Shown here in pieces: positions 3,372-56,744 of a stretch of 59,045 bases of DNA (within the stretch, counting starts at the first letter, position 1; the number at the start of each line of letters is the position of its first letter). This DNA comes from a virus. Both the position numbers and the translations under genes were made by a program. The DNA lies in the IMG/VR virus record IMGVR_UViG_3300025151_000040, positions 1 through 59,045 of that record; one strand, written 5' to 3'. The notes beneath the pieces were generated by a model, which was not told where the DNA came from, did no database searches, and worked only from the letters and a program-made list of their open reading frames with translations.

Positions 3372-4634
3372 ATGAATTTTGCGAGATTAGCATTCGCTGA
3401 AGCCCCTTTCTCTGCGGAAGGTGGAACTAGTATAGCAGTCGCTGTTACTGGTCAAGCCCTCACTACTACATTAAATAGTGTATCAGTTGACGTAACTACC
3501 GGTGTTGCAGTCACTGGTCAAGCCCTCACTACTACATTAAATAGTGTAATTGTATCAGCTCAAGGAGAGATCTCAGCTTCAGGACAAGCTCTTACTGGAT
3601 CTGTAAACAATGTCGTAGTAGCAGGACAAGCTGTTATAAGTGAAACAGGTTTTGGTTTAACTTCAACATTAGGAGATGAATCAGTAGCTATTAACATAGC
3701 TATTGCTCAAGTAGGACAAGAATTAACTTCAACTTTATCTGACGAAGTTGTTGTAGGATCTGCAGTAGTTGTAGAAACAGGAGTTCAAGGAAATACAAGT
3801 TTAGGAAGTGTTGCTGTTCAAATCCCTGGTGATGTAGTTATAAATGGACAAGAAGCTACAGTTTCTCAAGGAAATGAAACTGCAATTGGCTCAGCTTTAG
3901 TTGTTCCTAAAGGAGTAACTCAAACTTTCACTGTAACAGTAGCTTCAGTCGGAGGCGCTAATAAATACTTCATAGACGGAGTTCAACAGCCTACTCTTGA
4001 ATTAAAAGAAGGTAATGTTTACATATTCGATTGGTCAGCCGCTACAGGGCACCCTGTTAGGTTTTCTACCACTAGTGATGGTACACATAGTGGAGGTAGT
4101 GAATATACTACAGGGGTTGTAAAAGACGATAGTAATTATAAAACAACTATAACTGTTGCCGCTTCTGCTCCTACTCTATATTATTACTGTCAATATCATA
4201 GTGGTATGGGAGGTCAAGCTAATACTCCTACTAATACAGATTATCAAGGTCAATCTGCTACTACAAGTTTAGGAAGTGTTACAGTTGAGCTTGTAACCGA
4301 TATAGTTGTTACAGGTCAAGAATTAACTACATCATTAGGAAGCACTACTCAAGTTGGAAGTGCTGCAATTGCTGTTACTGGTCAAGCATTAACAACCACT
4401 TTAAACGATGTAGTAGTAAAGAATAATCAAGTATTCTCAGTAACAGGGCTTTCTGCAACTACATCTGTAGGAACTGTATCAATAGTAGGGCAACAAATTC
4501 TTTCAATTTCTGGATTTTCTGCTAATATTAATATAGGTTCACCTAATTTCTGGCAACCTATACCAGGGGCAAGTAATTCGTGGACTGAAGTAAACACTTC
4601 GAATACAAACACATGGAAGGACATAGCGGCATAA
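3372..4634 (+). CDS. Repeat-rich tail fibre with embedded cupredoxin domain
   Basis: 420 residues. Residues 20-180 and 290-395 are made of degenerate units of about 22 residues of the type VTGQALTTTLNSV, expected to form a beta-rich shaft. Between them, residues about 183-285 form a cupredoxin-like domain: a strand with GHPVRFS (His227) and YYYCQYHSGMGG with Cys273, His276 and Met279, i.e. all four type 1 copper ligands in the right order. The last 30 residues (SNSWTEVNTSNTNTW) look like a tip attachment motif. Related copper-domain fibres are known in marine phages; whether copper is bound here is inference. Confidence 0.7.
   Translation: MNFARLAFAEAPFSAEGGTSIAVAVTGQALTTTLNSVSVDVTTGVAVTGQALTTTLNSVIVSAQGEISASGQALTGSVNNVVVAGQAVISETGFGLTSTLGDESVAINIAIAQVGQELTSTLSDEVVVGSAVVVETGVQGNTSLGSVAVQIPGDVVINGQEATVSQGNETAIGSALVVPKGVTQTFTVTVASVGGANKYFIDGVQQPTLELKEGNVYIFDWSAATGHPVRFSTTSDGTHSGGSEYTTGVVKDDSNYKTTITVAASAPTLYYYCQYHSGMGGQANTPTNTDYQGQSATTSLGSVTVELVTDIVVTGQELTTSLGSTTQVGSAAIAVTGQALTTTLNDVVVKNNQVFSVTGLSATTSVGTVSIVGQQILSISGFSANINIGSPNFWQPIPGASNSWTEVNTSNTNTWKDIAA
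3447..3548 (+). repeat. Two perfect 36-bp direct repeats
   Basis: Bases 3447-3482 and 3513-3548 are identical and 66 bp (22 codons) apart in frame, inside the fibre gene. They encode the TGQALTTTLNSV unit. Nearby protein repeats have diverged at DNA level, so this pair is a recent duplication or gene conversion in the fibre shaft. Confidence 0.85.
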
Positions 4635-23817: not shown

Positions 23818-24600
23818 TTGTATTTATTTTTTGACACAGAAACGAACGGCTTGTGGCGCCGTGATCTAGAAGCCACTGATCCAAAACAACCACATCTAGT
23901 ACAAATAGCTGCACAGTTAGTAGATGAAAATGAAAAAGTTATTAATCAATGTTCGATACTTATACGACCAGAAGGTTGGACTATTCCTAAAGATGCTGAA
24001 GATGTTCATGGCATCTCCAATGAGAAGGCAGCTACTTATGGTGTACCTCTTATTAGTGCCCTTTCTGTGTTTAATTCTATGGCAGCTTCGGCTCATACAC
24101 TTATCGCACATAACTTAGCTTTTGATTTGCAAATAATTGCAAGAGATTTTCATTATTTAAAAAAATCTTTTAAACAACCTAAAGACTTGCATTGTACTAT
24201 GATGAGTACAAAAGATATTCTTAAATTAGAAAGTGATTTTGACGATTACAAATTTCCTAAACTAGTTGAAACTTATGAACACTTTTTTAATGTAGCCTAT
24301 TTCGATTGGCACGATGCTTTAGCTGACGTTCAAGTATGTAGAATTATATATTTTCATTTAAAAAATAAAGGAATTGACTTAAAAGCACCGAGAGAACTTC
24401 CTAAAAAGTTGATTAAAGTAATGAATAATGACGATTACGAGGAATTAATCGGTTTAATTTCATCTATAAATAGAGATAATATAAGCGATTGGGAAAGCAA
24501 TTTTCTCAAAGACCAAGAAGAAAGAATTGACAAATACAAAGAAAAAGTGATGATATCTGATAAACAAATGAACATAATAAGGAGAATGGCAGAAAAATGA
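23818..24600 (+). CDS. DnaQ-like 3'-5' exonuclease (DEDDh)
   Basis: 260 residues from TTG 23818 with AGAAAGGAAG upstream. Exonuclease motifs: FDTETNG (Asp6, Glu8), LIAHNLAFDL (Asp103) and WHDALADV (His165, Asp170), which is the DEDDh set. A C-terminal 80-residue extension is helical. The DNA polymerase at 31955 has its own exonuclease domain, so this free enzyme may serve in recombination, repair or nucleotide salvage. It overlaps the next gene by 4 bases. Confidence 0.88.
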   Translation: MYLFFDTETNGLWRRDLEATDPKQPHLVQIAAQLVDENEKVINQCSILIRPEGWTIPKDAEDVHGISNEKAATYGVPLISALSVFNSMAASAHTLIAHNLAFDLQIIARDFHYLKKSFKQPKDLHCTMMSTKDILKLESDFDDYKFPKLVETYEHFFNVAYFDWHDALADVQVCRIIYFHLKNKGIDLKAPRELPKKLIKVMNNDDYEELIGLISSINRDNISDWESNFLKDQEERIDKYKEKVMISDKQMNIIRRMAEK

Positions 24601-25553
24601 AAACAGTTGTAGTAACAGGAGCCGCAGGATTCTTAGGAAGAAACTTGTGTGAACATTTATTAAATAAAGATTATAAAGTTGTTGGTATAGATAATTTTTT
24701 AACTGGTAGTGAACGTAATGTATTTGAACATGAAAACTATTACTTTTATGAAGCAGATATCGTTAAAGACGATTTATCAATGCTTCTTCGAGATCACAAT
24801 AAAAAAGGAATTAATTACATATATAACTTAGCTTGTCCTGCTTCACCAGATCATTATAAAACTCATGCTTTTCAAACGTTAGAAGCTTGTTATACAGGAT
24901 TAAAAAACATGATTACATATTCATTAGAGCAAGGAAATGTTAGAATGCTTCATACTTCTACAAGTGAAGTTTACGGAGATCCTCAAGTAGATGAACAGGA
25001 AGAGAAGTATTGGGGAAACGTAAATTCTTTCGGACCACGTGCTTGTTATGATGAAGGTAAAAGAGTTGGTGAAGCTTTAATCTATGAATCAATAAATAAA
25101 TTAAAATCAAATATAGGAATCGCAAGAATCTTTAATACTTATGGTCCTTATATGGCGATTAACGATGGTAGAGTTATATCTAATTTTATTACAGAAGGCT
25201 TAAAAGGCAATAATCTTATCATATACGGAGGCGGTTTTCAATCTAGATCTTTTTGTTATGTTGATGATACTATAAAAGGTTTAGTTAAAATTTGTGAAAG
25301 CGATTATAAAGAAATATTTAATGTAGGAAATCCTGATCGTTATACAATAGTTGAGATAGCTGAAATAATAGCAGAAAAAACAGATGCACCTGGTTGGAAA
25401 AATACTAACCCTTCACCAGACGATCCTTTACATAGAAAGCCTAACATTAAGAAAATACAAAATATGTTAGATTGGTCGCCTCAAATTTCTTTAGACAGTG
25501 GACTTGAAAGCACTATAGATTATTTTAAGCATGCTCTCGAAAGACAAAACTAA
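24597..25553 (+). CDS. UDP-glucuronate decarboxylase (UDP-xylose synthase)
   Basis: 318 residues, a normal length for the soluble enzyme. Extended SDR features: TGAAGFLG (Gly8, Gly11, Gly14) for NAD, ACPASPDHY near 79-87, TSTSEVYGDP with Ser123-Glu124, YWGNVNSFGPRACYDEGK with Tyr151 and Lys155, and QSRSFCYVDD. The GDP and NVN..GPRxCYDEGKR blocks are characteristic of UXS rather than of general sugar epimerases. The reaction is UDP-glucuronate to UDP-xylose plus CO2. Its place upstream of a hydroxymethylase-type gene and a glycosyltransferase suggests the pentose is used to decorate phage DNA; envelope or virion glycans are alternatives. Confidence 0.85.
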   Translation: MKTVVVTGAAGFLGRNLCEHLLNKDYKVVGIDNFLTGSERNVFEHENYYFYEADIVKDDLSMLLRDHNKKGINYIYNLACPASPDHYKTHAFQTLEACYTGLKNMITYSLEQGNVRMLHTSTSEVYGDPQVDEQEEKYWGNVNSFGPRACYDEGKRVGEALIYESINKLKSNIGIARIFNTYGPYMAINDGRVISNFITEGLKGNNLIIYGGGFQSRSFCYVDDTIKGLVKICESDYKEIFNVGNPDRYTIVEIAEIIAEKTDAPGWKNTNPSPDDPLHRKPNIKKIQNMLDWSPQISLDSGLESTIDYFKHALERQN

Positions 25554-27045
25554 AATAATATTAGGTCCACCTGGCACTGGTAAAACAACTACATTATTAA
25601 ATATTTTAGAAGAAGAAATAGAAAGTGGGATAGCACCAGAACGCATTGGCTTTGTATCTTTTACACGCAGAGCAATTAAAGAAGCTAGAGATAGAACACT
25701 AGAAAAATTTAAAGACATTGATAAAGATCAATTAGATTATTTTAGAACACTTCATAGTTTATGTTTTAGATCGTTAGGCTTAAATAGTGAAAGAATATTT
25801 AAAGGCTTACATATTACAGAGTTTAAAAAAATATTAAGAATAGATATGACTGGTGATGTTGACGAAGAACAGATTGTATCTAATGGTGCTAGTTTAGGAG
25901 ATCGTATGTTATTTTGCGATCAGTTAGCTAGGGCAAAGATGTGCCCTCTAAAAGATACATGGAGAGAGTTGAAGTGTGATTACTTATGGGAAGAACAGAA
26001 GTTATTCTCAGATACACTTGTTGATTTTAAAATGAAAAGAAATCTTCTTGACTTTACTGATATGTTAAGTTCTTTTTTAGATTCTGAGTACACTCCTGAT
26101 ATAGATATTTTATTTGTTGACGAGGCGCAAGACTTAACGAAGCTACAGTGGAAAGTAATTGATAAATTATCTAACTCTGTAAAAACTATTTATATAGCAG
26201 GAGATGACGATCAAGCTATATATAAGTGGGCAGGAGCTGACGTAGAAACTTTCTTAAATCTTGACGGAGAGATTAGAATATTACCTTTCAGTTATAGATT
26301 AAAAAAACGTGTTTTTGATTTAGCAAATCAAGTTACTAAAAGAATTATGCAAAGATACGATAAAGATTGGTCTAGCAGTGAGGAACAGGGATCAGTTAAT
26401 TATATTGAATCTTATGAATATGCGGATATGTCTCAAGGAGGTTGGTTAATTTTAGCAAGAAATAATTATCAATTGTATCCTATAGAAAAATATCTAAAGC
26501 AAAAAGGATATGTATTTGAAAGAAAGTTCGGTGGATTTAGAGCTAATAAACATGTTGTAGCAATTAGAACTTGGCTTCAGTTAAGTAAGGGTGATGAAGT
26601 TTCTTATGATTCTATAATGAAACTATATAGTTGTATAAGAACAGGAGAGGGAATTAAAAGAGGTTTTAAAAACGGAAACAGTTTAGATAAAGAAAAATCT
26701 TATACATATCAAGACTTAAGAAATAATCATGGTTTAATAGCAATGGGAAAGTGGGAAGAAGCTTTAGGATTAATTCCTGACGATGATAAATATTATTATC
26801 AAGCTTTAGAAAAAACAGGAGATTTATTTTACAATGAACCGAGAATAAGACTTAGCACTATACATGGAAGTAAAGGCGCTGAAGCTGAAAATGTTATGCT
26901 TCTTACAGATGTATCTTATGCTACATGGAAAAACATAAATGATCAATCAGATGATGAACATCGTGTTTTTTATGTAGGAATTACTAGAACAAAGAATAAT
27001 TTATTTATAGTGAATCCACAAGGGCTATATAGTTATCCGATATGA
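25531..27045 (+). CDS. UvrD/Rep-like SF1 DNA helicase
   Basis: 504 residues, overlapping the preceding gene by 23 bases. Motifs: LGPPGTGKTT (residues 11-20), VSFTRRAIKEA (Ia), ILFVDEAQDLT (II), AGDDDQAIYKWAGAD (III), FSYRLKKRV (IV), STIHGSKGAEAENVML (V) and HRVFYVGITRTKNNL (VI). It is a stripped-down SF1A helicase without the long UvrD C-terminus. Likely unwinds DNA in replication or recombination, and is a candidate main helicase since no DnaB or T7-type ring helicase is present. Confidence 0.88.
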   Translation: MLSKDKTKIILGPPGTGKTTTLLNILEEEIESGIAPERIGFVSFTRRAIKEARDRTLEKFKDIDKDQLDYFRTLHSLCFRSLGLNSERIFKGLHITEFKKILRIDMTGDVDEEQIVSNGASLGDRMLFCDQLARAKMCPLKDTWRELKCDYLWEEQKLFSDTLVDFKMKRNLLDFTDMLSSFLDSEYTPDIDILFVDEAQDLTKLQWKVIDKLSNSVKTIYIAGDDDQAIYKWAGADVETFLNLDGEIRILPFSYRLKKRVFDLANQVTKRIMQRYDKDWSSSEEQGSVNYIESYEYADMSQGGWLILARNNYQLYPIEKYLKQKGYVFERKFGGFRANKHVVAIRTWLQLSKGDEVSYDSIMKLYSCIRTGEGIKRGFKNGNSLDKEKSYTYQDLRNNHGLIAMGKWEEALGLIPDDDKYYYQALEKTGDLFYNEPRIRLSTIHGSKGAEAENVMLLTDVSYATWKNINDQSDDEHRVFYVGITRTKNNLFIVNPQGLYSYPI

Positions 27046-27689
27046 AAACAAAAAAAGAAATATTAGATTTATTTTTAAATCACATAGATTCAGAAATCTA
27101 TGAAGAACCTTACTCGAACATGCATGATGGTATTATAAGACAACAAGCTGACATATTTTTAGAAAGATTTTCTATATTAAAAGAAGATAAGATACTTGAC
27201 GTAGGTTGTGGCTTTGGTTTATTTCAACAATACTTAGCTCAAAAAGGATATCACAACACGATAGGAATTACAAAAGCTAAAAAAGATATAGATAATTTAA
27301 TAGAAACTAAAACACCTTTTAGAGAAACTGATATAACATTTACAGGTTTAGATAAAGATTATGTGAATCATATATGGTGTAGACATTGTATTGAACATAG
27401 TCCTTTTCCTTATTTAACGTTATTAGAGTTTAACAGAATTATGAAAAAAGATGGTTATTTATATTTAGAAATGCCAGCACCAGAACAGGCTGCTATACAA
27501 GAACATAAACAAAATCATTACTCTGTATTACCTAAAGAAATGTGGGCTAGTTTATTAATAAGATCTGGATTTAAAATTAAAAACTTTGAAACTATTGATT
27601 TAATGTTACAAAAGAAAAACGGAGAACAATATTCTGAATCGTGGTATTTTTATATGGCGCAAAAGACTTTAGAAAAATCTTTGTTTTAA
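27042..27689 (+). CDS. Class I SAM-dependent methyltransferase
   Basis: 215 residues, overlapping the helicase by 4 bases (ATGA). Motif I is ILDVGCGFGLFQQYL near residue 48-62, followed by an acidic strand end, HIWCRHCIEHSPFPY (motif IV-like) and a YLYLEMPAP strand. There is no DPPY or PC active site, so it is not an ordinary DNA base methyltransferase; small-molecule, sugar or protein methylation is more likely. Given the neighbours, methylation of a nucleotide sugar is one possibility, with no direct support. Confidence 0.75.
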   Translation: MKTKKEILDLFLNHIDSEIYEEPYSNMHDGIIRQQADIFLERFSILKEDKILDVGCGFGLFQQYLAQKGYHNTIGITKAKKDIDNLIETKTPFRETDITFTGLDKDYVNHIWCRHCIEHSPFPYLTLLEFNRIMKKDGYLYLEMPAPEQAAIQEHKQNHYSVLPKEMWASLLIRSGFKIKNFETIDLMLQKKNGEQYSESWYFYMAQKTLEKSLF

Positions 27690-27742
27690 AATAAAAATAA
27701 GTTATTATTATACTAATTAGAAAGGAGCATTAATAAATAACT
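27690..27742 (+). promoter_or_regulatory. Promoter-like spacer before the C5-methyltransferase
   Basis: A 53-bp AT-rich gap. TATACT at 27709-27714 lies in ATTATACTAA, a string shared with the divergent promoter at 20230-20298. It is followed by AGAAAGGAGC and then 16 bases before ATG 27743, an unusually long distance for the ribosome binding site. It may start a transcript covering the DNA-modification genes. Confidence 0.4.
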
Positions 27743-28792
27743 ATGAACGCAATCGGAAGTCATATCTTTGCTGGTGGGTTTACACTCGGAGTAGAGAAAC
27801 ATTTCAATGTACTAGCACATTTTGAAGGTGATGGCGCATATGGCGCTGACACGTTTTCTTTAAATAGACCTAATATACCAGTTTACTCTGGTCCTGCCGA
27901 CTGGCCTATTAAAGACTTTGAGGGTAAAATTGATTTCGTTTATGGTAACCCTCCTTGTGCTCCTTGGTCAACACTAGGAACGGGTGGTCGCAAAGATCTA
28001 GACTGGCGAGATGATCCTCGCATTGAAGCATGGTCTCATGTCTTTTCACTCCTTAATGACTTACAGCCAAAAGCTTTAGCGATTGAGTCCGTTCCTAGAG
28101 TATTTGCTAAAACAGGAGGTCGTCCTATGATTGACGACTTTACTAATAAAGCTATAAACTTAGGGTACAATGTTACTCATTTCTTACTTGACGGTCAGTA
28201 TACAAATTTAAATCATAGTCGTAGAAGATTCTTTTTTATGGCGCATAAAGGCGGTTTATCTTTTCCTAGATTGAATTGGAATCCAGCACCTACTATACAA
28301 GAAGTTTTAGGAGAAGTACCAGAACCTGGATACTGTAATTCATTTACTAAAACTGAAGCTGAGTTAGTACCTCAGTGCGGTCAAGGAGAACAGTTGAGAA
28401 CTGTATGGGAAAAATTAAATCCACCTGAAACTTGGGTAAGATCTGAAAAAGGAAGAAGAGGTGTAAAAGGTAGACCTCAATTTATGAAATGGAGATTACG
28501 AGCAAATAAACCTGCAGGAGTTATTGCTGGTGGATTCTACATTCACCCTACTGAACATCGATTATTAGGACATAAAGAATTAGCACACTTCGCAGGTTAT
28601 CCTCAAGACTATCAATGGGCAGGCTCTCCGACTGGTATAGGATCTTTAATCGCAAGAGGAGTTATGCCACCAGTAGGTGAATTTATAGGAAGAGTTGTAA
28701 AGAATTCTATAGCTGAAAATGAAGAAGCAAAGGAACAAGTACAGATGGTTGACTATACTAAACCACCTCAAATGGAAGATTTATTTACATGA
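27743..28792 (+). CDS. DNA cytosine C5-methyltransferase
   Basis: 349 residues. C5-MTase motifs are in order: IGSHIFAGGFTLGVEKHF (motif I), GNPPCAPWST with catalytic Cys72 (motif IV), AIESVPRVF (motif VI, ESV for the usual ENV), NHSRRRFFFMAH (motif VIII), and GHKELAHFAGYPQDY with IGSLIARGVMPPV (IX-X). Target recognition would lie in residues about 190-260. It would methylate C5 of cytosine in a short site using SAM. It sits beside genes that look able to make hydroxymethylcytosine, so its real substrate deserves a test. Confidence 0.85.
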   Translation: MNAIGSHIFAGGFTLGVEKHFNVLAHFEGDGAYGADTFSLNRPNIPVYSGPADWPIKDFEGKIDFVYGNPPCAPWSTLGTGGRKDLDWRDDPRIEAWSHVFSLLNDLQPKALAIESVPRVFAKTGGRPMIDDFTNKAINLGYNVTHFLLDGQYTNLNHSRRRFFFMAHKGGLSFPRLNWNPAPTIQEVLGEVPEPGYCNSFTKTEAELVPQCGQGEQLRTVWEKLNPPETWVRSEKGRRGVKGRPQFMKWRLRANKPAGVIAGGFYIHPTEHRLLGHKELAHFAGYPQDYQWAGSPTGIGSLIARGVMPPVGEFIGRVVKNSIAENEEAKEQVQMVDYTKPPQMEDLFT

Positions 28793-29166
28793 GCCAGTAT
28801 AAAGATATTGATTCTTTTCATAAAAAATTTAAATTTAATCAAGGCAAAGGAATTGAATCAATGAATTATAATTTTGGTAACTGGCGTGTTGACTTTCTTA
28901 TGGAAGAGATTGCTGAGTTGACCGATGCTTTAGATAATAAAGATGATGTAGAAATACTAGATGCTTTAGTTGATATCTGTTATGTAGCTATGGGAACAGC
29001 TTGGTTAATGGGTTTACCATTTGAGAAAGCATGGAAAGAAGTACAACGGTCTAATATGGAAAAGATTAGACAAGCTAGTGATCGATCTGAATTTGACGTA
29101 GTTAAACCTGAAGGTTGGAAAAAACCAGATATAAAAGGAATAGTTAAAAAATGGCGAAAATCTTAG
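28789..29166 (+). CDS. MazG-like nucleotide pyrophosphohydrolase
   Basis: 125 residues. The all-alpha NTP-PPase signature is present: EEIAEL with Glu39, Glu40 and Glu43, then EILDALVDICYVA with Glu55, Asp58 and Asp62 as metal ligands. T4 gp56, the dCTPase that keeps cytosine out of phage DNA, belongs to the same superfamily, and this gene lies between a C5-MTase and a glycosyltransferase. A dCTP/dUTP pyrophosphatase is therefore a good guess; ppGpp or general house-cleaning is the alternative. Confidence 0.78.
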   Translation: MSQYKDIDSFHKKFKFNQGKGIESMNYNFGNWRVDFLMEEIAELTDALDNKDDVEILDALVDICYVAMGTAWLMGLPFEKAWKEVQRSNMEKIRQASDRSEFDVVKPEGWKKPDIKGIVKKWRKS

Positions 29167-30191
29167 TTACAGGATTCACTGCTAAAGGAATTGGTAGTGG
29201 TGATAATAAATTAAATATCGCAACAAGTGCGAATCTACTTCCGAAAGCATTAAAGATGGTAGGACATGAAGTAATTCAAAGACCTATTATACCAGGTGAT
29301 GATGTTTCACAATACGATCATGTATTTGTATTTATGTTTCCACCGAATAGTTTACCAAGTGCTTATACTTATGGCGCAATGTATACATTAGCTAAAAGAC
29401 CAGACGCTGTTTGCTGTCTTGACGATTGGCAAACTAAAGATGTACCGTCAGGGTTTGCTACATTTGCAAGAGAAGGCCACTGGCGTTTATGGAAAACCCA
29501 TACACAATCTGGTGCGCCTATGAAAAAACGATATTACAACGAAGCACTAGAGTATAAACAAGAACTAAACGACTTGTGCACTACAATGGGATTTGAAGAA
29601 TGGCCGTATAGATGTCTTGCACCAGTGTATAGAACTGGTAATATTGAAGCATTAGGTATAAAAGCGAAAGAATTAATTGCATGGGATCCTACTCCTATTT
29701 GCGATTCCTATATGGAAACGCCTACAGATCTATTTAGTATTGATCAACAAGTTGACGTTAAAAATAAAGAAAAGAAATGGGTTTATGCTTCTCTCATTCA
29801 AAAGCCAGGTTGGTTAGAAAGAACACCTGGCGATTGGGAAGTACAAGCTTATGGTAATAAAAATTTAGGACAGGAAAGAATTAGTGAACATGAACTGTAT
29901 AAAATATATCAGAAATCATGGGGAGTATTAGTACCTCCTCACTATCACACTTTAAAGAAAAGCGGTTGGTGGAGAGTTCGTTATGGAATGATTAAAGATG
30001 CTGAATGTATTACTTGTGGAGATCCTACGGAACTATCAATCTTCTTTGAAGATAGAGTTAAACCTAGAAAAGCGATAGAATTGATGAGTGATAGTGAATT
30101 AAAAGATTATCGCAATAAACAGTTATTAGATTACGAAGACGTATTTTGGTCTAAAGAGGAATTAAAAAACTTTATAATAGATTTATTATGA
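29151..30191 (+). CDS. GT-B-like glycosyltransferase, candidate DNA glycosyltransferase
   Basis: 346 residues overlapping the MazG gene by 16 bases. The N-terminus (ILVTGFTAKGIGSGD, then LPKALKMVGHEV and DHVFVFMFPP) looks like the first Rossmann domain of a GT-B enzyme. The second half has KKWVYASLIQKPGW, a YGNKNLGQ strand, SWGVLVPPHYH and GWWRVRYGMIKDAECITCGD, resembling the sugar-nucleotide pocket of the T4 hydroxymethylcytosine glucosyltransferases (acidic residues after R-x-x-x-M). Identity is by pattern only. Context of hydroxymethylase-type, kinase and UDP-sugar genes fits transfer of a sugar to DNA. Confidence 0.5.
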   Translation: MAKILVTGFTAKGIGSGDNKLNIATSANLLPKALKMVGHEVIQRPIIPGDDVSQYDHVFVFMFPPNSLPSAYTYGAMYTLAKRPDAVCCLDDWQTKDVPSGFATFAREGHWRLWKTHTQSGAPMKKRYYNEALEYKQELNDLCTTMGFEEWPYRCLAPVYRTGNIEALGIKAKELIAWDPTPICDSYMETPTDLFSIDQQVDVKNKEKKWVYASLIQKPGWLERTPGDWEVQAYGNKNLGQERISEHELYKIYQKSWGVLVPPHYHTLKKSGWWRVRYGMIKDAECITCGDPTELSIFFEDRVKPRKAIELMSDSELKDYRNKQLLDYEDVFWSKEELKNFIIDLL

Positions 30192-30739
30192 ACGGAATAT
30201 TAATTGTAGAAGGACCAGATGGTGCTGGTAAGACTACATTAATAAATCAACTTAGAGAACACTGGTTATTTAAAACTCGCTACATGCATCTGCGAGTTCA
30301 TAAAGAAATGGAAAAGTGGCACTGCGCTACTGCGAGAAGAGCCATTCGATTATCAAAAGATTATCTTGTTATCTTAGATAGACATTGGCCTAGTGAACAA
30401 ATCTATTCTTATGAACGATCACCTGGTCCAAGCTACGATCCTACGAATATGGTTGATTGGCTAAAGAGTCATGGTGCAATCTATATATGGGCTATACCAG
30501 AAGATTATCAAAGGTTGATTGAAGAACATAAAACTAGAAGAGAAGAAAGACATGAAGAGTACCACGATATAACGAAAGTTGTTAAAAGATATTACGATCA
30601 TTGGTACGGTACTTATGAAGGGCCAGATAATTATTTAAAGAAGATACAACCATTAAATAAAAGAAATGACTTCATACGATACGATCGGTTTACTGATAAA
30701 GATATCTTAGATAAAATAATAGATAGATTAAGACCATAG
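30188..30739 (+). CDS. Deoxynucleoside monophosphate kinase-like P-loop protein
   Basis: 183 residues. Walker A is VEGPDGAGKTT (residues 7-17) as in thymidylate kinases. Then come LDRHWPSEQIY (the DR(Y/W/H) nucleoside-binding motif) and RREERHEEYHDI (lid-like Arg/Glu run). T4 gene 1 kinase phosphorylates hydroxymethyl-dCMP; this protein would do the same step if the next gene is a dCMP hydroxymethylase. dTMP kinase activity is the conservative alternative. It overlaps the GT by 4 bases. Confidence 0.75.
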   Translation: MNGILIVEGPDGAGKTTLINQLREHWLFKTRYMHLRVHKEMEKWHCATARRAIRLSKDYLVILDRHWPSEQIYSYERSPGPSYDPTNMVDWLKSHGAIYIWAIPEDYQRLIEEHKTRREERHEEYHDITKVVKRYYDHWYGTYEGPDNYLKKIQPLNKRNDFIRYDRFTDKDILDKIIDRLRP

Positions 30740-30752
30740 AAAGGAGAACTTA

Positions 30753-31538
30753 ATGCCTATGAATCATGCTAATGAAGTCTACCGTAATCTAATTGATGAA
30801 GTAGTAGACAGAGGATACGGAGCAGATCCTCGTGGTATGTTTACGAAAGAAATTATAGGACACACGACTAGATGTTCTATGAGTTCACCTATCGTTACGA
30901 TACCAGAAAGAGAACTCGGATATAAATTCATGTTCGCTGAAGCACACTGGATACTCTCTGGCGATAACCGAGTATCAACAATTAAACCTTACTCGAAAGC
31001 TATTAAAAGATTTAGTGATGACGGAGTATTTTATTTCGGAGCCTACGGTCCTAAGATCGTAGATCAACTACCTTATATATGTAAAGCTTTAAATGACGAT
31101 TTAACGACACGTCAAGCTTGTATTAATATATGGAGAGAGAAACCACCAGTATCGAGAGATATACCTTGCACGTTATCTTTACAATTTCTAATTCGAAGAG
31201 ATACCTTATATGTTATATCTAATATGAGAAGTAATGACGTATGGCTCGGTTGGCCTTACGATAACTTTAATTTTAGTATGATCGGTTTATCTGTCTGTCT
31301 CCTAATGAGACAAATGCATAATAAGAAACTTAAACTAGGAATGCTTATTAATAATGCTGGTAGTAGACATCTTTACAAGGAGAACTTCGAAAAAGCTTAT
31401 AAAGTTGCCGATTCAACAGCTTTAGGTTTTGGCTATGAAACTATTACGCCTGAAAGATTTAGTAGTTTTGAGGACTTAAAAAACGAATTAAAAGTATACA
31501 AGGATAACCCAAGTGAATTCCTCTTCGCACACACTTAG
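30753..31538 (+). CDS. Thymidylate synthase family protein, predicted dCMP hydroxymethylase
   Basis: 261 residues. Family residues: catalytic Cys139 in RDIPCTLSLQF, Arg159-Ser160 and Asp162 in MRSNDVWLGWPYD, and RHLY near 205-208 for the sugar. The residue 31 after the catalytic Cys, Asn177 in E. coli thymidylate synthase, is Asp170 here (PYD for PFN). Asn177 reads uracil; the Asp at this place is what makes T4 gp42 a dCMP hydroxymethylase, and dCMP-specific engineered TS has the same change. His after the catalytic Cys (PCH) is Thr. The product is therefore predicted to be 5-hydroxymethyl-dCMP. GAAAGGAG precedes the start. Confidence 0.8.
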   Translation: MPMNHANEVYRNLIDEVVDRGYGADPRGMFTKEIIGHTTRCSMSSPIVTIPERELGYKFMFAEAHWILSGDNRVSTIKPYSKAIKRFSDDGVFYFGAYGPKIVDQLPYICKALNDDLTTRQACINIWREKPPVSRDIPCTLSLQFLIRRDTLYVISNMRSNDVWLGWPYDNFNFSMIGLSVCLLMRQMHNKKLKLGMLINNAGSRHLYKENFEKAYKVADSTALGFGYETITPERFSSFEDLKNELKVYKDNPSEFLFAHT

Positions 31539-31983
31539 ACCTAGTAAAGACGAATACTTTATGGACATGTGCTTTCTTGTATCTCAACGTAGCACGTGCA
31601 TGAGAAGGCAAGTAGGAGCTGTTTTAGTTAATAAGAGAAAACATGTTCTTGCTACAGGATATAACGGTGTAGCTGCAGGTCAACCTCATTGTTTAGATAT
31701 ACCTTGTATCGGTGCAAAATCTGTTAGTGGTACAGATTTAGAATTATGCGAAGCTGTTCATGCAGAACAAAATGCTCTACTTCAGTGTCAAAATGTGTTT
31801 GAAATAGATACATGTTACGTTACAGTATCTCCTTGTATGACGTGTACTAAGTTATTATTAAACACAAGTTGCCAAACGATAATCTATGCTGAAGATTACG
31901 TTGATCAGAATGCAAGAAAGTTATGGGAACGACACGATAGAAAGTGGGTAAGATTTGACGACGGATCTTTTCAAACCCACTAG
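31513..31983 (+). CDS. dCMP deaminase
   Basis: 156 residues from GTG 31513 inside the previous gene (26-base overlap). RPSKDEYFMDMCFLVSQRST, GYNGV and the zinc site (His83 and Glu85 in HAEQNAL, Cys108 and Cys111 in SPCMTC) match phage dCMP deaminases. It converts dCMP to dUMP for dTTP synthesis. In T-even phages the same enzyme balances dTTP against hydroxymethyl-dCTP, which fits its place beside the hydroxymethylase-type gene. Confidence 0.9.
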   Translation: MNSSSHTLRPSKDEYFMDMCFLVSQRSTCMRRQVGAVLVNKRKHVLATGYNGVAAGQPHCLDIPCIGAKSVSGTDLELCEAVHAEQNALLQCQNVFEIDTCYVTVSPCMTCTKLLLNTSCQTIIYAEDYVDQNARKLWERHDRKWVRFDDGSFQTH

Positions 31984-39713: not shown

Positions 39714-39784
39714 GATTAAATCAGCAAACTACCATAATTGTACTGTTATTACTGTTAGTCTTAAAACAGTACGGTGTCTTATGA
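39710..39784 (+). CDS. 24-residue membrane peptide
   Basis: Start and stop both overlap the neighbours by four bases (ATGA), which ties it into the operon. MRLNQQTTIIVLLLLLVLKQ is one hydrophobic span with polar ends. Second of three tiny membrane peptides in the early region. Confidence 0.6.
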   Translation: MRLNQQTTIIVLLLLLVLKQYGVL

Positions 39785-40311
39785 ATATCTTTGCTCTTTC
39801 ACGATGTGCTCAAACGTCAGCTGAATGGCTATGCGATAAGCATGTCGTGAAGATGATATTAGAAACAGGCCAGATGTTATCGACAGCTCATCATGAGTTA
39901 AAATCTAAACATCTTGGTAGATATAAATATTATGAACCAGCATATGTAAATCACCCATGTACTGTATGGGCTAGAACTTCTCATGCTAATTACTTCTGGT
40001 TATACGAACACTTTGAAAGACTATGTCAACTGTACGAAGAGATATACCACAGAACTCATAAGACATGGGTTAAACTTCACAAAGCTTGTAGTATGAGTCC
40101 ATTCGAATTAACTGGTCCTTTTAAAACACCTGATAGTAGCTTGATTGACTTGACTGAGTTTCCTCAATGTATGCCAGATAAATACAAAGATACAGATTCA
40201 CACTTAGCATATCGAAGATATTACATAGGTGAAAAGCTACATTTCGCAGAGTACAAGAGTAGAAAGATTCCTGCGTGGATTGCTTCAAAAGATGTTTATC
40301 TTGATAATTAA
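39781..40311 (+). CDS. Conserved phage protein with CDKHVVKM motif
   Basis: 176 residues. CDKHVVKMILETGQMLSTAHH, NHPCTVWARTSHANYFWLYEH and a C-terminal YRRYYIGEKLHFAEYKSR then IPAWI are conserved blocks of a family present in many tailed phages, sometimes loosely linked to pyrimidine dimer glycosylases. I cannot confirm an enzyme activity from the sequence. Coupled to the membrane peptide upstream. Confidence 0.75.
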   Translation: MNIFALSRCAQTSAEWLCDKHVVKMILETGQMLSTAHHELKSKHLGRYKYYEPAYVNHPCTVWARTSHANYFWLYEHFERLCQLYEEIYHRTHKTWVKLHKACSMSPFELTGPFKTPDSSLIDLTEFPQCMPDKYKDTDSHLAYRRYYIGEKLHFAEYKSRKIPAWIASKDVYLDN

Positions 40312-43671: not shown

Positions 43672-43844
43672 TCTAAGTTAATTTTTTTCTACGAGGAAAA
43701 TAAAATTCCTCGTAGAATATTCGTATTAAGTTTAACGAAAAACTTCGTATAAGTTTCAGAAAAAACAGGTGCCTGTGCCTGTAGGAGCGAGTAGCGACTG
43801 AACAAATAGCTTTTATATGTATAAATTTCATATATAAATAATTG
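43672..43844 (+). other. 173-bp spacer with a long hairpin
   Basis: Contains a perfect 12-bp inverted repeat (43687-43717), a second arm pair AAGTTT/AAACTT (43728-43733, 43740-43745), a doubled TTCGTAT, and GTGCCT repeated near 43772-43784. No gene. It separates the early genes from the large terminase operon and may end one transcript and start another. Confidence 0.5.
43687..43717. repeat. Perfect 12-bp inverted repeat
   Basis: TTCTACGAGGAA (43687-43698), 7-base loop, TTCCTCGTAGAA (43706-43717). The plus strand has no T run after it, but T7 lies before it. It may be an RNA processing site, a rho-dependent stop or the binding site of a dimeric protein. Confidence 0.7.
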
Positions 43845-44495
43845 ATGGCTTTTCTCGTAGCAAACATTCCACCTATTGAAGTTTATGTAAAAAAAGAGTA
43901 TCTTTATGACCATGAAAAAGGTCATGGAGAATTTGAAAAAGGTGTTTGGGTCACTGCTAAGTCGATTACCGGCAGAGCTTTGTATTTCGAAACGTACTTA
44001 TATAATTCTGGCGCTCTTTTTGATAAGCTGCCTATATCTGCTTTCTGCTCAAAGCCAGTAAAGCCAGAAGAAAGTTTACCATTAGAAGAGTTACAGTTAT
44101 GGGATTGTTTCAGTTACCACATTTCTGTTATAGAAAAGTGTAACGCAGGAACAGGTCGTTGTAAGTATTTCTCACCAAATAAAAATTGGCATTACGGAGT
44201 TTATCTGTTTACGATAGATTCTGCACACGCCGATCCTAACATTCCTAACTGTGGTTACTCAGAAGTTCCTAGTCAACATAAGTCTTTCAATATTATTGAA
44301 TTAGATAATGGTCATTATGCAGCTCAACCAAATAATCGAGTTATATTTTACGATAAAAGTTTGTCTCCGAAAGAAATGACGTTCCCTGATTATAAAGTTT
44401 CTACTATTGAATATAGTGTCGAGCATCATTCTAAATGGGTTGCAGGAGATGATGAAAGTTTCTTTTATGAACTTAGAGATACTACAAAAAGCTGA
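43845..44495 (+). CDS. Conserved terminase-adjacent protein
   Basis: 216 residues from ATG 43845 (a TTG lies directly before). FLVANIPPIEVYVKKEYLYD, GEFEKGVWVTAKSITGRALY, LQLWDCFSYH, YGVYLFTIDSAH and NIIELDNGHYAAQPNNR are conserved blocks of a protein regularly found next to terL in marine podoviruses. Beta-rich, no known function; a packaging or head role is suggested by position. It overlaps the large terminase by about 40 bases. Confidence 0.75.
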   Translation: MAFLVANIPPIEVYVKKEYLYDHEKGHGEFEKGVWVTAKSITGRALYFETYLYNSGALFDKLPISAFCSKPVKPEESLPLEELQLWDCFSYHISVIEKCNAGTGRCKYFSPNKNWHYGVYLFTIDSAHADPNIPNCGYSEVPSQHKSFNIIELDNGHYAAQPNNRVIFYDKSLSPKEMTFPDYKVSTIEYSVEHHSKWVAGDDESFFYELRDTTKS

Positions 44496-55614: not shown

Positions 55615-55981
55615 CAATAGACGTAGACCAGTAAAAGCACCTTCTTTTCCTTTTGCAAGGGGAACGTATGCTAGAGCTATTTCAGATCGTTCAGGTTTAG
55701 AATATCCATATAGAGAAATGGTTCGTGAATGGAATGGATTATTAGTTCATATAAGCGAGTATGAACCTAAACATCCTCAATTAGATCCTATTGTATTTAA
55801 TGATCCAGAAGCGTTAAAAAATGCTAGACCACAAGCACCTCTTTCAGCTACAGGAGGTGTACCAAATCAAATATCAGTAACTTTCCCTGGCACGTTTGGA
55901 GACACAGGTAAAAACGTAGCGGTAGCTACAGGGAATTCAATCGGATTGGAGTTAGGAAATGTCTCAGTCGTTATCAGCTGA
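55604..55981 (+). CDS. Head-completion-type protein that has lost its zinc cysteines
   Basis: 125 residues from GTG 55604. The middle reads ARAISDRSGLEYPYREMVRE, then WNGLLVHISEYEPKHPQLDP and DPEALKNARP. In relatives known to me this region is a zinc knuckle with C-x-x-C before Y and again before EPKHPQ; here the cysteines are Ser and Ile/Ser. The C-terminus is a beta strand pair (ISVTFPGTFG). It overlaps the adaptor by 11 bases. Confidence 0.65.
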   Translation: MVFNNRRRPVKAPSFPFARGTYARAISDRSGLEYPYREMVREWNGLLVHISEYEPKHPQLDPIVFNDPEALKNARPQAPLSATGGVPNQISVTFPGTFGDTGKNVAVATGNSIGLELGNVSVVIS

Positions 55982-56744
55982 TAATGCATATCTTATGTTA
56001 TGCACACCTTGTTATGGTGGCGTAATGCACGAAGCTTATTTTCATAGCGTTGTAAAATTATTACAAGAAGCTAAAAATAATAATTATAAAATTCACATTA
56101 ACACAATGGGAAATGAAAGTCTTATTACTAGAGGAAGAAACACTATGGTTTCTCAATTTATGGATAGCGAATACTGTACTCATTTACTATTTATAGATGC
56201 TGATATAGCGTTTAGACCTGAATTAGTTACTAAATTAATAAATTTTGATAAAGACGTAGTTACAGCTGTGTATCCTAGAAAATCTATTGAATGGCAAAAT
56301 CTTAATTACTATTTAAAAAAAGGAAATACAGATTCGATAGAACAGAAATTATTAGGATATAATTTGAATTTTGCAGATCCTTTAAATATAGAAGTAGATA
56401 ATGGTTTCGTAGAAGTATTAGATGCTGCAACTGGATTTATGTTAATTAAAAAAGATGTATTTGTAAAAATGAGAGAAAGTTATCCAGAGTTAAAATATAA
56501 ATCAGATCAGATTATTAATAATAAATCTTATTCAAGCGATTGGTGTTATTCCTTTTTTGATTGTATGATAGATCCAGATAGCAAACGATATTTAAGTGAA
56601 GATTACACATTTTGTCGAAGATGGCAAAAAATAGGCGGTAAAATATACTCAGAAATACAAAGCCCTTTAACTCATTTTGGCACATATGCATTTAAAGGAA
56701 ATGTATCGCATAAATTTGCAAAAAAAGATAATATAGACATATAA
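55959..56744 (+). CDS. GT-A-type glycosyltransferase in the structural block
   Basis: 261 residues, overlapping the previous gene by 23 bases. LCTPCYGGVMHEAYFHSVVK and NESLITRGRNTMVSQFMDS lead to LLFIDADIAFRP, with Asp80-x-Asp82 as the metal and UDP-sugar motif. Then AATGFMLIKKDVF, YLSEDYTFCRRWQKIGGKIY (ED as probable base) and a final TH in LTHFGTYAF. These features are those of family 2-like GT-A enzymes. It may glycosylate capsid or tail proteins, or modify host surface glycans. Confidence 0.75.
   Translation: MSQSLSADNAYLMLCTPCYGGVMHEAYFHSVVKLLQEAKNNNYKIHINTMGNESLITRGRNTMVSQFMDSEYCTHLLFIDADIAFRPELVTKLINFDKDVVTAVYPRKSIEWQNLNYYLKKGNTDSIEQKLLGYNLNFADPLNIEVDNGFVEVLDAATGFMLIKKDVFVKMRESYPELKYKSDQIINNKSYSSDWCYSFFDCMIDPDSKRYLSEDYTFCRRWQKIGGKIYSEIQSPLTHFGTYAFKGNVSHKFAKKDNIDI

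Follow-up and report, generated by a model that had tools for sequence, protein, structure and literature searches.

What are the sugar-nucleotide and glycosyltransferase genes of an uncultured podovirus-like phage doing among its replication genes? The phage is represented by the IMG/VR record IMGVR_UViG_3300025151_000040, which we analysed in its entirety (59,045 bases; hereafter the window), and the genes in question form a run between positions 24597 and 31983. Here a UDP-glucuronate decarboxylase (UDP-xylose synthase, UXS) and a glycosyltransferase-like protein (GT) keep company with a DNA cytosine-C5 methyltransferase, a MazG-type pyrophosphohydrolase, a kinase, a thymidylate synthase (TS) homologue and a dCMP deaminase. 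An original prediction, made from the letters of the sequence, took this run for a pathway to DNA containing pentosylated hydroxymethylcytosine. On balance we favour a reading of this kind, in which the operon yields a genome with deoxycytidine (dC) replaced by glycosylated 5-hydroxymethyl-dC, most likely bearing a pentose. Our analysis shows what the genes are, which active-site residues they encode, the fold predicted for GT, their synteny and the joint presence of UXS and GT, and from this we infer the acceptor, the sugar and all of the reactions. All computational tests able to refute the original prediction came out in its favour, and as a whole it is partly supported.

The nature of the base is indicated by the TS homologue (30753-31538; PF00303, E 1e-18). 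Of proteins with solved structures, MilA, a CMP 5-hydroxymethylase, comes nearest to it in sequence (E 1.5e-19), ranking above thymidylate synthases and above T4 gp42. At positions 143, 146, 147, 169, 173 and 177 (numbered as in E. coli ThyA) it carries D C T D G D, identical to T4 gp42, where ThyA has L C H D G N and the RB69-type enzymes have E C T N V D; the catalytic cysteine is retained and D177, T147 and D143 are all present. In MetaGPA, 147 and 177 proved the best two positions for telling contigs with modified cytosine from the others (PMC8670742). The dCMP-type active site claimed for this protein is borne out, the hydroxymethylase signature being present and the dUMP-type residues absent. 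RB69-type phages place arabinose on 5-hydroxy-dC, giving 5-arabinosyl-dC (PMC13390438), and the E143, N169 and V173 pattern of their synthases (RB69_048c, Gualtarvirus) is not found in the window protein, which has D143, D169 and G173, as well as Y209 where the RB69-type enzymes have F. Because of these differences the window enzyme would make hydroxymethyl-dC rather than 5-hydroxy-dC, and an RB69-type 5-hydroxy-dCMP synthase was rejected as its identity. An isolated relative, Stenotrophomonas phage AXL3, has a TS 44% identical to that of the window and the same gene order (methyltransferase, MazG, kinase, TS, deaminase); its DNA resisted 35 of 37 restriction enzymes and was cut by just the two whose sites contain only A and T (PMC7504290), which is, by analogy, the nearest experimental support for this base module altering DNA. 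Overall, synthesis of hydroxymethyl-dC is likely.

The GT (29151-30191) is the only gene of the run that Pfam and PHROGs left without a family assignment. No function emerged from searches of Pfam, PHROGs, NCBIfam or PDB sequences, and its single PHROG match, phrog_14998, has no annotated function. An AlphaFold (AF2) model, built from an alignment of 32 family members (pLDDT 86.9, pTM 0.86), has a GT-B fold, and a Foldseek search of the PDB placed T4 beta-glucosyltransferase (BGT; 1qkj, 1nzd, 1c3j) at ranks 1, 2, 3 and 5 with a best E-value of 1.4e-6; the selenosugar synthase SenB was fourth and T4 alpha-glucosyltransferase (AGT) came lower, at about 0.01-0.03. Alignment with hhalign of a 37-member GT profile and a six-member BGT profile gave a probability of 94.4%, a score of 62 over 303 columns and an E-value of 8.8e-8, the calibration of such pairwise values being rough; 30 column-shuffled BGT profiles scored no higher than 25.8 and unrelated families no higher than 28.4. 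The two proteins are about 15% identical in this alignment, and only the profile-profile comparison worked, a single-sequence hhalign of GT against T4 BGT being insignificant. The RB69 transferase ORF003c, represented by one sequence, matched GT with an hhalign probability of just 0.6%. Asp100, Arg269 and Glu272 are catalytic or UDP-binding residues of BGT; an Asp91/Asp92 pair, of which Asp92 is invariant, aligns with Asp100, and Arg277 aligns with Arg269. The designation as a GT-B-like glycosyltransferase thus withstood both structure prediction and profile comparison with DNA glycosyltransferases, and glycosylation of DNA by the 29151 enzyme is probable.

As to the sugar, the product of 24597-25553 (PF01370, 7.6e-42) matches human UXS1 with an E-value of 5.5e-78 over residues 2-317, no PDB entries other than UXS1 pass 1e-30, and the UXS and SDR catalytic motifs TSTSEVYG, YxxxK, RxFNTYGP and NDGRV are conserved in relatives. 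The gene is, by sequence, a genuine UXS, as had been supposed, and it tracks GT across genomes. UDP-xylose is the plainest donor, since the window encodes no further epimerase-family gene. The proposal of a UDP-xylose-based donor is strengthened by the identity of UXS and its linkage to GT, but the pentose on cytosine, which was part of the same proposal, is deduced from that linkage alone; a pentose is our best guess for the sugar, with a somewhat better than even chance of being right.

Among relatives of GT and of the TS homologue taken from IMG/VR, 11 contigs besides the window extend over the position of UXS, and the block is syntenic in all of them, with four (L002, L004, L006, L007) about 72-100% identical to the window per gene and seven (L009, L038-L043) about 41-67%. 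UXS and GT are jointly present in all of these 11 and in the window (12/12 genomes), and are kept together down to about 50% protein identity; both are absent from eight phages with a hydroxymethylase-type TS (IMG genomes G001 and G007-G009, HTVC200P, ct3Et533, ctUtU524 and AXL3). In G001 the kinase comes straight after MazG, like an empty GT slot. Comparison of the window with three relatives gave dN/dS values of 0.05-0.23 for every gene of the module (UXS 0.16, GT 0.08-0.11), which indicates that the module is under purifying selection. The seven open reading frames named in the original prediction are all present at the expected coordinates, all on the plus strand, and neighbouring frames overlap by 4-29 nt at most junctions; such a run is far beyond chance.

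Beyond this clade, GT relatives occur beside other sugar-nucleotide genes. The family accompanies a TS with the hydroxymethylase signature in Aeromonas and Erwinia T4-like phages, in Gordonia phages, in actinophage DSL-LC01 and its kin, and in Manatee phage ctIqW946. A UDP-galactopyranose mutase (UGM) adjoins GT in the Aeromonas and Erwinia phages, in DSL-LC01 and in several of its kin, and follows GT directly in 17 of the 17 cyanophage-like loci that extend past it (contigs L084-L100 and L013). In Gualtarvirus the family sits between an arabinose-5-phosphate isomerase and a gene like RB69 ORF53_52, a few genes from a 5-hydroxy-dCMP synthase. This variety suggests that the neighbouring enzyme reveals the donor, which here points to UDP-xylose or a derivative. 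We therefore suggest, tentatively and at a little less than even confidence, that the members of phrog_14998, a widespread family, are DNA glycosyltransferases of BGT fold and that their donor varies by lineage, being supplied through UXS (xylose or arabinose) in the window clade, through UGM (a furanose) in the Aeromonas and Erwinia T4-like phages and actinophages, and through RB69-type arabinose genes in Gualtarvirus. The cytosines of the window clade would then carry a xylosyl- or arabinosyl-hydroxymethyl group made via UDP-glucuronate decarboxylation, a route not previously described. As a separate observation, the Gordonia phages (L014, L022, L023, L025) have two members of the GT family, the second diverged and a few genes from the first. 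No GT relative turned up among 84,980 scanned genomes of bacteria and archaea, and hence no clue to a host or prophage.

We propose a scheme in which the MazG-type enzyme would turn dCTP into dCMP while dCMP deaminase would drain the remainder to dUMP and dTMP, so that normal dCTP falls. The TS homologue would hydroxymethylate dCMP with methylene-tetrahydrofolate and water, the P-loop kinase and a host kinase would raise hydroxymethyl-dCMP to the triphosphate, and PolA would incorporate it. The phage UXS would make UDP-xylose from the UDP-glucuronate of the host, host enzymes might then epimerise it or contract its ring, and the BGT-like enzyme would then move the pentose onto the hydroxymethyl group in DNA, which would shield the genome from restriction and Cas enzymes.

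Other explanations divide according to which step of this scheme they deny. Hydroxymethylcytosine could be made and then receive a hexose from the UDP-glucose or UDP-galactose of the host, in which case UXS would have some other use, for instance in glycosylating the virion or the host surface; the enzyme with the nearest fold to GT, T4 BGT, takes UDP-glucose as its donor, and UXS-like genes stand in surface-polysaccharide contexts in other phages (Aphanizomenon phage Yong-DA). The window also has a GT-A-like gene (55959-56744) in its structural cluster, a phrog_1574 member with weak similarity to Anp1 and Glycos_transf_2, which could be an alternative user of the UXS product and which co-occurs with UXS in two larger relatives, G004 and G006. 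However, this gene is common to HTVC023P and to Sinorhizobium, Caulobacter and cyanophages, and HTVC023P has no epimerase-family gene at all, while UXS lies within the nucleotide and replication operon, in genes that overlap, and is retained by every GT carrier as described above; we consider a hexose fairly unlikely. It is unlikely, too, that the pathway stops at 5-methyl- or 5-hydroxymethylcytosine and that GT acts elsewhere, for instance on host lipopolysaccharide or a virion protein. That idea draws on the cyanophage-like genomes in which the family occurs with UGM and without a hydroxymethylase, and on ct3Et533 and AXL3, which have the base module without GT; it has to contend with a nearest fold that is itself a DNA glycosyltransferase, with the position of GT, which overlaps MazG on one side and the kinase on the other, and with its association with a hydroxymethylase or hydroxy-dCMP synthase in actinophages, Aeromonas and Erwinia T4-like phages and Gualtarvirus.

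The remaining two explanations concern the TS homologue. Were it to make 5-hydroxy-dCMP in the RB69 manner, the sugar would sit directly on the ring oxygen (5-O-pentosyl-dC), a product for which 5-arabinosyl-dC, established for Mosigvirus (PMC13390438), offers a precedent, and Gualtarvirus combines the same GT family with an RB69-like synthase. This reading is very unlikely, however, since at each of four positions that set the RB69-type enzymes apart the window protein carries the T4 gp42 residue (D143, D169, G173 and Y209, against E, N, V and F). Finally, the run might serve the ordinary nucleotide pool, with dTMP supplied by MazG, the kinase, the deaminase and a variant thymidylate synthase, and with UXS and GT as unrelated passengers. 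Phages do commonly carry TS-family, MazG and dCMP deaminase genes, but Asp177 and Thr147 speak against the use of dUMP, and the strict synteny, the purifying selection and the restriction resistance of AXL3 DNA leave this explanation hardly credible.

Several observations weigh against glycosylated, and in particular pentosylated, hydroxymethyl-dC in the window. The overlap of the GT model with BGT is moderate (TM about 0.5), a value that is usual between two-domain GT-B enzymes differing in domain closure, and the profile alignment contains no counterpart of BGT Glu272. The window has no UDP-glucose dehydrogenase, so that UDP-glucuronate must be host-derived, and no UDP-xylose 4-epimerase or other epimerase-family gene besides UXS, so that UDP-arabinose would require a host epimerase. 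GT relatives beside UGM probably use other sugars, and no TS-family protein was found in the two GT+UGM genomes checked, cyanophage C48C1 and IMG genome G002; some members therefore act elsewhere or on another acceptor, and the family is not confined to hydroxymethylcytosine DNA. The carriers of UXS and GT are one clade, and their association represents one joint gain or loss followed by long joint retention, not 12 events.

The C5-methyltransferase and the motif composition of the clade add to these points. The methyltransferase (27743-28792; PF00145, 1e-23) has intact catalytic motifs (PPC, ESV and RRRF) that are conserved in relatives, and it recurs with GT, MazG and the hydroxymethylase in the window clade and in distant actinophages; it would be without a target in phage DNA because every C5 would be occupied. 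Its inclusion in the pathway was thus correct as to the gene, which is present and intact, but the scheme has no evident place for it. The window contains no CGCG tetranucleotide (0 observed against 27.9 expected), and four UXS+GT genomes including the window have almost none (2 against 87.8), compared with 334 observed and 334 expected in four control genomes without GT. This avoidance extends over the UXS+GT clade (G003-G006, L004, L006, L007, L009, L038-L043), in which CGWCG (CGACG/CGTCG) and TACGTA are also depleted, while GCGC, CCGG and CGSCG are not; in relatives that lack GT the counts are normal. If the genome were fully shielded, there should be no need to avoid CGCG, CGWCG and TACGTA. 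Avoidance is expected where the modification fails to stop restriction or some other sequence-specific activity; examples would be an activity that precedes full modification, a nuclease dependent on the modification, and the methyltransferase of the phage itself. Steric crowding of adjacent modified CpGs was considered as a cause of CGCG loss and is disfavoured, as GCGC and CGSCG are not depleted. CGCG avoidance is the main reason why our confidence is not higher.

The operon as a whole reads exonuclease, UXS, UvrD helicase, a class I S-adenosylmethionine (SAM)-dependent methyltransferase, C5-methyltransferase, MazG, GT, kinase, TS homologue, dCMP deaminase, PolA (a family A polymerase directly 3' of the deaminase) and a VRR-nuclease-like protein; the gene list of the original prediction was correct in its seven members but overlooked the SAM methyltransferase, the helicase and the exonuclease. 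The MazG/PRA-PH-type pyrophosphohydrolase (28789-29166; PF01503 1.7e-14, phrog_671 1.7e-30) is a predicted dCTPase by virtue of its family. The thymidylate-kinase-like P-loop dNMP kinase (30188-30739), predicted to act on hydroxymethyl-dCMP, is a weak match (PF02223 6.5e-6, below the Pfam cut-off; phrog_761 8e-11), and the dCMP deaminase occupies 31513-31983 (PF00383 7.2e-22, phrog_174 2.2e-41). The SAM methyltransferase (27042-27689, plus strand; PF13489, 6.9e-14) could methylate the sugar or another target as a further decoration; it is present in L002, L006, L009 and L038-L043 and absent from L004 and L007, and among phage records it has almost no relatives, one being a Manatee Spring record.

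The large terminase is nearest to those of phage 023Pt_psg01, Pelagibacter phage HTVC027P and phage DSL-LC04, a podovirus-like group near which Pam1 also falls, in agreement with the original description of a small podovirus unrelated to T4. In DSL-LC04 and 023Pt_psg01 the genes for primase, UvrD and PolA are close neighbours with none of the modification genes among them, so that in the window these genes look inserted into a replication cassette; a megablast search of the gene module against phages gave no match. Elsewhere in the window we observed a pyrimidine dimer DNA glycosylase-like protein (39781-40311; PF03013), comparable to T4 denV, a 217-aa phrog_3704 protein annotated as 'ferredoxin' that adjoins the terminase (43842-44495), and imperfect 45-nt repeats spaced at 66 nt within a virion structural open reading frame (3438-4412).

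Within the openly accessible literature, T4-like phages are the only ones for which a pentose on cytosine is established, and UDP-pentose synthesis and transfer in them are stated to be unclear (PMC6024577, PMC13390438); in the same literature we found no description of a UXS in a phage DNA-modification pathway or of the phrog_14998 transferase family. Pentosylated cytosine itself is already known, from RB69 and Thanatos, and what is new here is the transferase family and the proposed donor route. The operon is a compact candidate for such a pathway, nearly complete and carried by a small phage unrelated to the T4-like ones; its donor enzyme is of a textbook kind and its transferase can be tested. 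From the GT family, new bases of sugar-bearing cytosine are further predicted in several isolated phages (Aeromonas Aes012, Erwinia FBB1, Gordonia GMA2 and GodonK, Morganella Rgz1) whose DNA is measurable now; bases of this kind are of interest as reagents and bear on restriction, CRISPR and type IV defence.

The features of the window have analogues in several known systems. T4 itself (gp56, gp42, gp1, cd and BGT/AGT) shares the chemical logic, the discriminating residues of gp42 and a BGT-like transferase fold, but the window belongs to an unrelated small phage with a family A polymerase, a MazG-type pyrophosphohydrolase, a thymidylate-kinase-like kinase and its own donor-sugar enzyme. The TS-D177, PRA-PH and dCMP deaminase base module is shared with the modified-cytosine phages of MetaGPA, in which the decoration is a carbamoyl group (5-carbamoyloxymethyl-dC; PMC8670742) and not the sugar predicted here. 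AXL3 has that module in the window order and resists enzymes with G or C in their sites, without GT or UXS (PMC7504290). The 5-arabinosyl-dC of RB69 and Mosigvirus (PMC6024577, PMC13390438) resembles the predicted product in joining a pentose to cytosine with the help of phage sugar genes, and the RB69-type arabinose clusters of Gualtarvirus contain the GT family of the window. RB69 employs a 5-hydroxy-dCMP synthase and an ORF003c-type transferase, however, the window has neither signature, and the arabinose-5-phosphate isomerase and ORF53_52 genes have no match in it; the precedent of arabinose on hydroxymethylcytosine, to which the original prediction appealed, has itself to be revised, as the RB69-type sugar sits on 5-hydroxy-dC (PMC13390438). 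Shewanella phage Thanatos carries a measured (deoxy)pentose on cytosine, putatively xylose-derived, and a phage enzyme that forms UDP-xylose (PMC12838424, in the text of which the terms 'decarboxylase' and 'glucuron' do not occur). In Thanatos this donor is made by a pyrophosphorylase from xylose-1-phosphate, whereas the route in the window would be decarboxylation of UDP-glucuronate.

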